From: an uncultured Microcaldota archaeon
Lineage (GTDB): Archaea; Micrarchaeota; Micrarchaeia; Micrarchaeales; Micrarchaeaceae
DNA length: 64,000 bases
Assembly: GCA_903884115.1 (NCBI GenBank)
Contig: CAISDH010000033.1
Location: 124,001 to 188,000, forward strand
Direction of reading: 5' to 3'
The number at the start of each line of letters is the position of its first letter. Within the stretch, counting starts at the first letter, position 1. The translations under genes were made by a program, and so were the position numbers. The notes under the pieces are model-generated. The model saw nothing but the letters and a program-made list of their open reading frames with translations, was not told where the DNA came from and made no database searches. This document shows positions 36,742 to 41,770 of this stretch, piece by piece.

Positions 36742-36945
36742 ATGATATCAAAACAGACGATAAAGAGGATGGTGAACAGGAACGGCATTGCGATAAGCGA
36801 CTCCGCCGCAGACGCGCTCGCCCGCATGCTGGAGAAGAAGGCTAAGAAGATAGCTAGCTATGCCGTCAAGAGGGCAAAAGCGAGCGGCAGGAAGTCCGTT
36901 CTTGAAGACGATATCGATACCTACAGGATAAAGTTCGGTGACTGA
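36742..36945 (+). CDS. Archaeal histone
   Basis: ISDSAADALARMLEKKAKKIASYAVKRAKASGRKSVLEDDIDTYRIKF histone fold; start taken at ATG 36742 (GTG 36718 also possible). Confidence 0.88.
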   Translation: MISKQTIKRMVNRNGIAISDSAADALARMLEKKAKKIASYAVKRAKASGRKSVLEDDIDTYRIKFGD

Positions 36946-37485
36946 ACGCCAGAAACTCCATTCATCGCCAGAAGCTCCGGCAAGGTGCTGCTGGAATACG
37001 GCACGCAGGGCAGGAAGACCATCAAGCTGTGGGAGGAAAAGCAGGGCGGCACCCTGGAGACGACGTTCAACCACGAAGGCGCGATACTGGCGCAGCAGCT
37101 CCTCAACAACACAACTACAGAGCACCGCATAAAATCAACTCTTGGCGCAGCATCGGTGCATAGCGCAATGGAGAAAGCGTATGAAGAAGTAAAACTTAAC
37201 AGGCAGTGTCCGCACTGCGGCGAAACCAGTCTTGTAAGATTCGCTGATTCTGTAGTTGCAAGCAAAGACCTTCCCGTGATGCCCCTCTACTCCTGCAGCG
37301 TGTGCAAGAAGCGCAGCTACTACCTTACCGACGAGTATCTTGAGTTCCTGGTGAAGAACAACGCCTCTCTGTTTGAGGGCGCAGAACTGGCAGAGCTTGA
37401 GAAGGACTCGCAGGCATTCATGCACGAGATCAAGGAGTACATAATAAGAATCTTTGCAGCGAAACACATAGAGCGAATCAGGTGA
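36946..37485 (+). CDS. Zinc-ribbon protein; probable ACG start (GTG 36985 is the canonical alternative)
   Basis: CPHCG...CSVCKK zinc ribbon. The frame is open from ACG 36946, directly after the histone TGA, with GGTGA upstream. Confidence 0.65.
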   Translation, partial: TPETPFIARSSGKVLLEYGTQGRKTIKLWEEKQGGTLETTFNHEGAILAQQLLNNTTTEHRIKSTLGAASVHSAMEKAYEEVKLNRQCPHCGETSLVRFADSVVASKDLPVMPLYSCSVCKKRSYYLTDEYLEFLVKNNASLFEGAELAELEKDSQAFMHEIKEYIIRIFAAKHIERIR

Positions 37486-38671: not shown

Positions 38672-38926
38672 TCACTGTTTAGCATCAATTACTGCTTTAT
38701 GCCCCTCTATGAGCCTCTTTGCAGCATCGCCTGCCGGAGTCCTCATCGTGTACGCTCCGCCGGCATACGTGGTGTTGCAGTGCTTGCATCTCCATATGGA
38801 GGTGCCTATCCTGCGCACAGCGGTCTTTCCGCATGCATCGCACTTGTAGAGCGTGCGCTTCTCCTGCATGATCTTGGCTGCACGCTTCCTTATGCTTGTG
38901 CCGTATCTTATGCTTGAATTTGCCGT
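38672..38926 (-). CDS. rpl37ae: Ribosomal protein L37Ae; probable ACG start
   Basis: KCDACGKTAVRRIGTSIWRCKHCNTTYAGGAYTMRTPAG. The in-frame upstream sequence [ACG]ANSSIRYGTSIRKRAAKI matches the conserved L37Ae N-terminus; ATG 38869 would remove it. Confidence 0.88.
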   Translation of the reverse strand, partial: TANSSIRYGTSIRKRAAKIMQEKRTLYKCDACGKTAVRRIGTSIWRCKHCNTTYAGGAYTMRTPAGDAAKRLIEGHKAVIDAKQ

Positions 38927-38930
38927 ACAA

Positions 38931-39722
38931 TCACACTCGTTTCTCTATGAGAGATTTTAGCTCTACATGCTTATTAAATGATATGCCGACGAGCTCCTCT
39001 ATCTCTTTCTGGTAGAAGCTGCCTCTGAGGCCCTTCTGCATCGACCTTATGCTGCTACCGTCGTTAGTCACGGTCAGCCTCGCATCAGAAGCGATCTCCT
39101 CATCAAGCGAGGGGTCAAGCAAGATGCTTCCGCCTATTTTCGCAAACGTCGTGGAGGTGACTATGTTGTCTATCTTGAGCCTGTTCTTCCTGTTCTCGTG
39201 TATCACCTTGCCGTCCTCATAGGTTGGCATAGTGGAGTTGAGCAGCGCGCTCATTGCCGCAATCTCGCACGCGTCGAATAGGTTTCCACCGTAGTTAAGC
39301 ACGTACACGTCTATGTAAACGCCCCATGCCTTCCCCTCCTCTATGAATAGGCTCTTCAGGTCTATGCAGCTGCCTGCGCGTATGCCCCTGTCTGTGACCC
39401 TTGAAAGCTCAATGGCCTCTGGGGTTGGCGGCCCGCTCTCATATTTTGAGTGTGCCAGCGGCAGAAGCTCAGCAGCAACTGTCATGTTGCCCTGGTCTGG
39501 AGTGTCAGTCATTGGCGCCTCAAGCGCTATCTTGACTCCTGCAAGGACCTTTGTGCGGCCCAGCTCCACCTGCGCGGATCCTTCTGCGTTGCCCATCGTG
39601 CCAGGGGTGATGCGCATGTTGCGGAAATCGAACATGCCCCTGCTGTCCTCGCGCATGTTCTTAGCGAGCATGCTCTTTATGTAATTGACTTTTATCATGT
39701 CTATGCTTTCCATTTTCATCAA
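38931..39722 (-). CDS. rrp42: Exosome complex subunit Rrp42
   Basis: RNase PH fold (GSAQVELGRTKVLAGVKIALEAP); downstream of Rrp41. Confidence 0.93.
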   Translation of the reverse strand: MMKMESIDMIKVNYIKSMLAKNMREDSRGMFDFRNMRITPGTMGNAEGSAQVELGRTKVLAGVKIALEAPMTDTPDQGNMTVAAELLPLAHSKYESGPPTPEAIELSRVTDRGIRAGSCIDLKSLFIEEGKAWGVYIDVYVLNYGGNLFDACEIAAMSALLNSTMPTYEDGKVIHENRKNRLKIDNIVTSTTFAKIGGSILLDPSLDEEIASDARLTVTNDGSSIRSMQKGLRGSFYQKEIEELVGISFNKHVELKSLIEKRV

Positions 39723-40456
39723 CTCTCGTATTTCTTTGATATGCTATCGTAATTCTCCTTAAGCGCATCTATCTGCTTCTTGGATATATCCTTGCCTGCG
39801 CTCAGCACCATGCTTATGCCTCTTGACAGCTGCTCCCTGCTAAGCCCGCCGTCCATCTGGAGCAGCAGTATCTCGCCGTCGCGCGGCGCTACAGCTATCG
39901 GCATGTCGCTGTCAGAGTAGTTGTCCTCTATCATGTTGAGGTCAAGGGCAAGCTTGTCGTCTATCCTGCCCACAGACACCGCATAGACAAGATCCCTCAT
40001 CGGTATGCCCGCGCTTGCCATGGCAACAGAGGCGGCAGTTATGCCAGCGGCGCGTGTTCCTCCATCGCCCTGCAGCACCTCTACGAATATGTCTATCTCG
40101 CTGCCTGGGAACTCATTGAGAAATACGACGTTCTCGAACACCTCCTTGATGACTTTTGATATCTCCGTGGATCTTCGTGAAGGGCCGCTTCTCCCGTGTT
40201 CAGAGAGGTTTGAGAACGGCGACATCGCGTACCGGCATTTTATTATCGCCTTGGAAGGGTCCATCATGTGCTTTGGCATCGCCTCCTTCGGTCCGTACAC
40301 TGCGGCAATTATCTTGTTGTTGCCCCATTCCACATACGCGGATCCGCTGGCATTGTCGATCACGCCTGCCTTTATGCTTAAAGGTCTAAGCTCGTCGAAG
40401 TTCCTGCCGTCCAACCTCTTGTTGTTCACTATCAATTCTGGCTTGTTGCTTTTCAT
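39719..40456 (-). CDS. rrp41: Exosome complex subunit Rrp41
   Basis: RLDGRNFDELRPLSIKAGVIDNASGSAYVEWGNNKIIAAVYGPKE; DIFVEVLQGDGGTRAAGITAAS. Confidence 0.95.
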   Translation of the reverse strand: MKSNKPELIVNNKRLDGRNFDELRPLSIKAGVIDNASGSAYVEWGNNKIIAAVYGPKEAMPKHMMDPSKAIIKCRYAMSPFSNLSEHGRSGPSRRSTEISKVIKEVFENVVFLNEFPGSEIDIFVEVLQGDGGTRAAGITAASVAMASAGIPMRDLVYAVSVGRIDDKLALDLNMIEDNYSDSDMPIAVAPRDGEILLLQMDGGLSREQLSRGISMVLSAGKDISKKQIDALKENYDSISKKYES

Positions 40457-41082
40457 ATAGTTCCCTTTTCAATATCATTTCCAATGATGCCTTTCTCTTT
40501 CTCGAGCATCTCTTTGATGCGCATTGTAAGTCCTGGCACGTGCGCCTCCTCGCATACGCGCTCAATCGCCGCGACCGCACGCGCGCTATTCTCCCCGCTG
40601 ATCCATACCAGTCCGTTCATGCCGACCACTATGCGCACGGCAGTGAGGTCTGCTATCTGGTTGATCATCGTGTTGCTCTTTCCTATCAGCCGCGGCACCT
40701 TCGAGGGCTTCACCTTCATCAGTATGCCACCGTGCAGCTCGCTTGACCCTTCCAATATGGCCGTCCTCCTGTTTTCAACATCCCTTATCACTGCGCTTAT
40801 GATGCTGCCCTTTTCCGGAGCAGTCTCGTACTTGCGCAGCACTATAAGGCCGCGCACAAAGGATGACAGGTCAACTATGCAAACGCTGCCCTTGGCTGAA
40901 GCAACCGTGCCCACAACAGAATCGCCAACATTCGCCTTCCACGTTCCTTCCAATGGTACAATCTCGCGTTCATCGTAGATGCCCAGCATCTTCGAGTAGG
41001 TGTTGCCGCCCTGAACGTATGAATTTTCCAGCCTGATGGGCCTTGATGCTATAAGTTCTCCAGGTACTACAATCTTTTTCGT
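40453..41082 (-). CDS. rrp4: Exosome RNA-binding subunit Rrp4; probable ACG start
   Basis: N-terminus [ACG]KKIVVPGELIASRPIRLENSYVQGGNTYSKMLGIYDEREIVPLEG, S1 and KH domains (KVPRLIGKSNTMINQI). ORF track begins at internal ATG 40989. Confidence 0.9.
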   Translation of the reverse strand, partial: TKKIVVPGELIASRPIRLENSYVQGGNTYSKMLGIYDEREIVPLEGTWKANVGDSVVGTVASAKGSVCIVDLSSFVRGLIVLRKYETAPEKGSIISAVIRDVENRRTAILEGSSELHGGILMKVKPSKVPRLIGKSNTMINQIADLTAVRIVVGMNGLVWISGENSARAVAAIERVCEEAHVPGLTMRIKEMLEKEKGIIGNDIEKGTI

Positions 41083-41086
41083 TTAA

Positions 41087-41770
41087 TCACTTCTCTATCT
41101 TTACGTCAGCCTGCCCCTGCGCAGCATTGTTTATGCGCTCCAAGAAATCACTCTGCATGCCTGCAGGGAATTCCAGCGACGCTTGCAGGCTGCCGTCGCC
41201 GAGCCAGCGCTCCGATTTCATGCCAAAACGCTTGAGCGTGCCGTATGCGCGGTTCGCAAAAGCGGCGGGCACTGTGACGGTCATCCTTATTGTTGTAAAC
41301 TTTATCGGCATTATGACGCTTAGCTTCTTGACGACATCATCGACCTGCTCGCTCGCGTTCTTGAACGGGTCTATGTTGACCTTGGCCTCTTTCATTGCGT
41401 TCTCTATTCGCATCGGCGGGTTGGGTGCGTTCGTCCTCGGGTCTATGGAATTCGTCGCTATGATGTCTATTATCTGCTTGCGCTTCTCCTCTGTCCGCAG
41501 GTTTCGCTGCTCTGCGGTCATCGGAACGTCGCCCTCCTTCAGTATGGCGTCAACAACCTTGTCGATGTCGTTTGTGCCGAACACCTTCTTTATCTTCTCG
41601 CTGTTCTGCCTCTCGTTCTTTCTTGCGTCCTTGAACACTTCCTCTGTCTGCAGGACGCTGAGCGGGTCGGTGCGCTTGCCTGTCACGTATTCGTATGCCA
41701 TGTCTGCATCGACAAGGATCTCGAACTCTTCACCGCCTTTACGCAGTTTAACGGTCACTATTTTCTGCAT
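41087..41770 (-). CDS. sdo1: SBDS/SDO1-family ribosome maturation protein
   Basis: [47 protein letters not shown]. Confidence 0.94.

Follow-up and report, generated by a model that had tools for sequence, protein, structure and literature searches.

ACG as the likely translation start of Rrp4 in an archaeal draft genome

Where does translation of Rrp4 begin when its frame offers none of the usual start codons at the expected position? The question is raised by the window, i.e., the whole stretch of 64,000 nucleotides analyzed here, which belongs to an archaeal draft genome of 1.02 Mb (57 contigs, 92% complete) containing a single Rrp4 copy. The Rrp4 frame carries no ATG, GTG, or TTG from an in-frame TAA (41085-41083) down to codon 32 (ATG 40989), and is open from the ACG directly following this TAA (41082-41080) to the stop at 40453. 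On the minus strand, the junction with the preceding SBDS gene reads AAG-TGA-TTAA-ACG-AAA-AAG-ATT-GTA-GTA-CCT-GGA. An earlier note, made from the sequence alone, had described this frame, and its description held, with the coordinates confirmed. The likely answer, reached without reads, cDNA, or peptides, is that ACG is the true start of Rrp4, used by direct near-cognate initiation with the ordinary Met-tRNAi.

The protein meets the domain criteria for an archaeal Rrp4, namely an N-terminal ECR1 domain (residues 3-45, Pfam ECR1_N_2) and a C-terminal KH domain (residues 119-165, KH_6). The exosome operon context is also met, with an SBDS ORF immediately upstream and Rrp41-like, Rrp42-like, and eL43 ORFs downstream (the Rrp41, Rrp42, and SBDS identities were assigned by eye). 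In the alignment with the A. fulgidus Rrp4 structure 2BA0, which spans residues 2-201, residue 2 is aligned to residue 2, and ACG therefore sits on Met1 of the A. fulgidus protein. The ECR1_N_2 match and this alignment show that the residues preceding ATG 40989 are genuine Rrp4 coding sequence, as the earlier note had claimed for the conserved N-terminus. The coordinates are collected in Table 1.

Table 1. Positions in the window of the Rrp4 start region and of two further genes opened at ACG.
Feature	Position	Strand	Remark
Rrp4 coding sequence from ACG	40453..41082	(-)	209 codons + stop
Rrp4 ACG on start column	41080..41082	(-)	placed by alignment with relatives and the A. fulgidus structure
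Rrp4 Shine-Dalgarno (SD) core GTGAT	41086..41090	(-)	complementary to 16S 3' end ATCACCTC; ACG 3 nt downstream
SD-bearing leader GTGATTAA			directly before ACG
SBDS stop TGA	41087..41089	(-)	overlapped by GTGAT; ends 4 nt upstream of ACG
In-frame TAA immediately 5' of Rrp4 ACG	41083..41085	(-)	rules out an upstream start
First canonical Rrp4 start, ATG (codon 32)	40987..40989	(-)	its use would delete most of the conserved N-terminal domain
eL43 (L37Ae) coding sequence from ACG	38672..38926	(-)	84 codons + stop
eL43 ACG on start column	38924..38926	(-)	29 relatives compared: ATG, GTG, or TTG
eL43 SD core GTGAT	38930..38934	(-)	ACG 3 nt downstream; overlaps Rrp42 stop TGA 38933-38931
Zinc-ribbon protein gene from ACG 36946-36948	36946..37485	(+)	alternative: GTG at codon 14
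Zinc-ribbon SD core GTGAC	36938..36942	(+)	3 nt before ACG 36946; in the histone-like ORF upstream, at its end
Histone-like ORF stop TGA, upstream of zinc-ribbon gene	36943-36945	(+)	

The comparison of 102 Rrp4 start regions shows that ACG occupies the start column, where the earlier note expected a methionine. This column is ATG in 81 of the 102 loci, and the majority of the remainder have ATG, GTG, or TTG there or one codon off. The exceptions are the window genome, the only one with ACG, the three genomes of genus g5 and a genome of another genus (G012), all with ATA, and one distant locus (L031). In all three g5 genomes, the ATA has no nearby canonical start (GGTGTTTTT-ATA-AAR-AGC), and in G012, an ATG lies two codons downstream. 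At the g5 loci (L019, L023, L084), the roughly 150 nt upstream of the ATA are closely similar to each other and unlike an SBDS end. A scan of genome contigs for relatives yielded one distant relative only.

The spacing between the SD motif and the start is also shown to be normal: AGTGATTAA-ACG in the window genome can be compared with AGTGATAAG-ATG, CGTGATTTA-ATG, and CGTGATATT-ATG in three relatives (L005, L022, and L048, respectively). The 16S 3' end is complementary to GAGGTGAT, and the AAGTGAT that the earlier note took for an SD-like motif was confirmed, with its core GTGAT followed by 3 nt.

The note had treated the oddity as specific to Rrp4, and this did not hold. A start screen covering 530 kb of the window genome (about half), with 313 orthologues, of which 253 had an informative start, and 800 kb from two relatives as a comparison set, gave homology-anchored starts at ATG (125), TTG (19), and GTG (19), the non-artefact rest being ACG and ATC. 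Five strong non-canonical starts were found in the genome, four with ACG (Rrp4, eL43, the zinc-ribbon gene, and one short gene of contig C51) and one with ATC (uS4). All have GTGAN and 3 nt ahead of the start codon, and two criteria for near-cognate initiation are met, i.e., the absence of an in-frame AUG, GUG, or UUG at the conserved start, and a ribosome-positioning signal at the usual distance. The majority of the other flagged genes had a canonical start a few codons within the alignment, and PheRS beta (C33 ~113482) was rejected as a missing-start gene, since a TTG is present.

Besides Rrp4, the second unambiguous ACG start is that of eL43, preceded by GTGATTGT. The zinc-ribbon ACG is preceded by GTGACTGA, and the same column is ATG, GTG, and TTG in three relatives (L274, L277, and L279, respectively); its GTG at codon 14 remains a feasible start. 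Rrp4, eL43, and the zinc-ribbon gene, the ACG genes of the window, each have their ACG 0-4 nt after the stop of the preceding gene, which their SD core overlaps or directly adjoins. The C51 gene (C51:29259) has ACG at SD spacing, preceded by GTGATTCG. Its sole canonical start (codon 17) falls within a conserved stretch, and its relatives all start upstream of that position, several precisely at the ACG column. A divergent neighbour and an A/T-rich stretch precede this gene, which has no coupled upstream gene, so ACG use is not limited to coupled genes. Outside the window, uS4 (C33:202046, L240) has ATC on its start column, preceded by GTGAGTTT; in the relatives, this column is ATG or TTG in 28 of 29, and ATA in G014 (L257).

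At the zinc-ribbon start column, L289 (G024) and L298 (G023) carry ATC and ATA, respectively, and the gene appears to start there. Other observations are suggestive only. The zinc-ribbon gene of G020 (L290/L300) may start at ACG. In the window genome (G000), they include a 226-codon ORF on contig C44 (L340) in which a TATA-like stretch precedes GAGTGATGAA-ACG, an ABC ATPase with ACG at C33:192833, for which GTG at codon 12 is possible, an ATT at C3:47126, and possible CTG starts at SD spacing at C33:56065 (+), with the first canonical codon 38 codons downstream, and at C31:7413 (-), with the first canonical codon 8 codons downstream. Separately, an in-frame TAG (ATQK*ALREE) at C33:225258-225256 (-) (L111 17756-17758) interrupts a long conserved coiled-coil ORF, Rad50/SMC-like by eye; a nonsense mutation, readthrough, or a base error are options.

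A count over GTGA + 4 nt sites considered ORFs that run for 60 codons or more and have no canonical start close by. ACG opens such an ORF at 6 of 19 sites, vs. 137 of 2920 for the other non-canonical triplets (Fisher p = 1.9e-4; 1.3e-3 after removing Rrp4, and 7e-3 after removing Rrp4 and eL43), and the same ACG count in two relatives gives 0 of 8. Since one or more of the six hits (C33:18958 at least) probably do not represent real genes, and most ORFs in the background are spurious too, this statistic constitutes support rather than proof.

The initiation machinery was also inspected. The window genome has one initiator-type anticodon stem-loop (GGGCTCATAACCC), with the normal anticodon CAT; an altered initiator tRNA with anticodon CGU was rejected on this basis, within a draft that is 92% complete. 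Several tRNA matches of this genome (e.g., L173, L180, L184) are ~95-124 nt long and look intron-containing. In Sulfolobus, aIF1 counteracts non-canonical (non-AUG) starts and discriminates against them (cited in PMC6237735). It is present in the window genome, where it aligns along its length with the solved archaeal aIF1 4mo0, and in 38 of 40 relatives. Loss of aIF1 as the cause of relaxed starts was thus rejected and, as the factor looks normal, nothing identified accounts for the relaxed start choice.

In the proposed mechanism, the SD core GTGAT would pair with the 16S 3' end and position ACG in the P site, where the CAU initiator tRNA would pair at codon positions 1 and 3, the C.A mismatch at position 2 being tolerated, and the protein would begin with Met. 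In the three window genes (Rrp4, eL43, and zinc-ribbon), ribosomes that finish the upstream gene 0-4 nt away could reinitiate and in this way perhaps compensate for the weak codon. Rrp4 would then be one case in an archaeal family with relaxed near-cognate starts (ACG and ATC in the window genome, ATA and ATC elsewhere). The start column, the SD spacing, the recurrence, the normal tRNAi anticodon, and the presence of aIF1 are observations; initiation at ACG, Met as the first residue, the presence of ACG in the mRNA, and the role of coupling are all inferred.

Of the four options listed in the earlier note, ACG initiation is the best supported, by the start column, the SD spacing, and the three more ACG starts and one ATC start. 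The closest rival, considered unlikely, is targeted C-to-U editing of the mRNA, which would turn ACG into AUG, as in plant organelles, before ordinary initiation. In its favour, ACG, the codon that editing could mend, makes up all but one of the five strong non-canonical starts, and chloroplasts are known to edit starts in this way (PMC9845219). Nevertheless, edited starts should all be convertible to AUG by C-to-U changes, and uS4, being ATC, is not, so that editing to AUG cannot account for it. Editing should further show itself as C in place of conserved U in the rest of the coding sequence, and this was not seen: among 255 internal columns with Met in both relatives, the window genome has ATG in 181 and ACG in none, and among 12879 agreed columns, its own-specific differences restorable by C-to-T (76) are not above those restorable by T-to-C (92). 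General C-to-U editing was rejected on these counts, and a heavy T-to-C error load is likewise probably excluded, as either would have shown in the internal columns; editing specific to starts could still escape them. Archaea are not known to have comparable C-to-U mRNA editing.

An ordinary ATG misread through a sequencing or assembly fault, or replaced in the consensus by a minority variant, is similarly unlikely. The source is a metagenome-assembled draft, incomplete and in many contigs, which leaves room for such errors. However, T-to-C errors would be required at the starts of four or more genes, spread over two contigs, and uS4 would need an error of another type. In addition, ACG is absent from the conserved internal Met columns, and Rrp4 ATA starts recur in three separately assembled genomes. 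A lone base error at Rrp4, as envisaged in the earlier note, is insufficient, because the genome independently yielded three further ACG starts and an ATC start.

The remaining rivals are very unlikely. Rrp4 could start at GTG 41090-41088, overlapping the SBDS stop, through a frameshift or slippage on the A-run, or because the assembly lacks a base (M-I-K-R-K-K-I-V-V-P-G); the sequence there is GTG ATT AAA CGA AAA followed by A5, and GTGA overlaps are common operon junctions, but the extra residues are absent from relatives, no relative uses this position, the GTG belongs to the SD core, and eL43, the zinc-ribbon gene, and the C51 gene would be left unexplained. Initiation at another nearby non-canonical codon (e.g., ATT, codon 4, also raised in the earlier note) or at ATG 40989 has in its favour that ATT initiation exists in bacteria, at ~0.3% of ATG efficiency (cited in PMC10666635), but this ATT lies 9 nt farther from the SD than the relatives' start column, and ATG 40989 would cost 31 residues.

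Direct initiation at ACG thus remains the preferred reading. A bolder one, rated more likely than not, is that of an archaeal lineage with ACG as a regular functional start, read by Met-tRNAi(CAU), on the sole starts of essential genes, in a family whose start rule is widened to ACG, AUA, and AUC. The evidence base is a draft genome with no second genome of its genus, and no reads, RNA, or peptides. If true, the basis of start-codon stringency in the aIF1/aIF1A/aIF2 system, which eukaryotes also have, would become directly testable, and SD pairing with coupling would be shown to be able to replace a cognate start codon. As prokaryotic gene finders accept ATG, GTG, and TTG, genes starting at ACG are truncated or missed.

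Nothing relevant on ACG starts in archaeal genes was found in the open-access literature searched. Across 36 prokaryotic genome groups, 61,358 ancestral AUG starts included only two that changed to CUG and one to AUU, and ACG was not reported (PMC5622118). Cases of ACG initiation have been described for eukaryotes and viruses (references in PMC9845219); yeast ALA1 is an example of a near-cognate ACG start. As in Sendai virus C' and mammalian reporters, an initiator tRNA would read ACG with one codon mismatch, but those systems rely on scanning, whereas the archaeon would rely on SD pairing and upstream-gene termination, at the sole starts of essential genes. Plant organelle ACG-to-AUG editing (PMC9845219) shares the genomic ACG on the start column and differs in that the window genome also has an ATC start and no sign of editing elsewhere. 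Rare bacterial near-cognate starts, such as the GTC of Streptomyces sigR (PMC5472188), share a conserved gene with a weak, possibly regulatory, sole start; the ATT starts of IF3 and pcnB are other bacterial examples. These concern other codons and isolated genes, whereas several unrelated genes are affected in the window genome. The leaderless GUC start of Halobacterium salinarum (cited in PMC4574771) is likewise a non-canonical start in an archaeon, but on a leaderless mRNA and with GUC rather than ACG. In archaea, termination-reinitiation is an established process where genes are tightly spaced (PMC10666635). It shares the start 0-4 nt past the upstream stop; it was, however, described with ordinary start codons, and the ACG gene on C51 is uncoupled.
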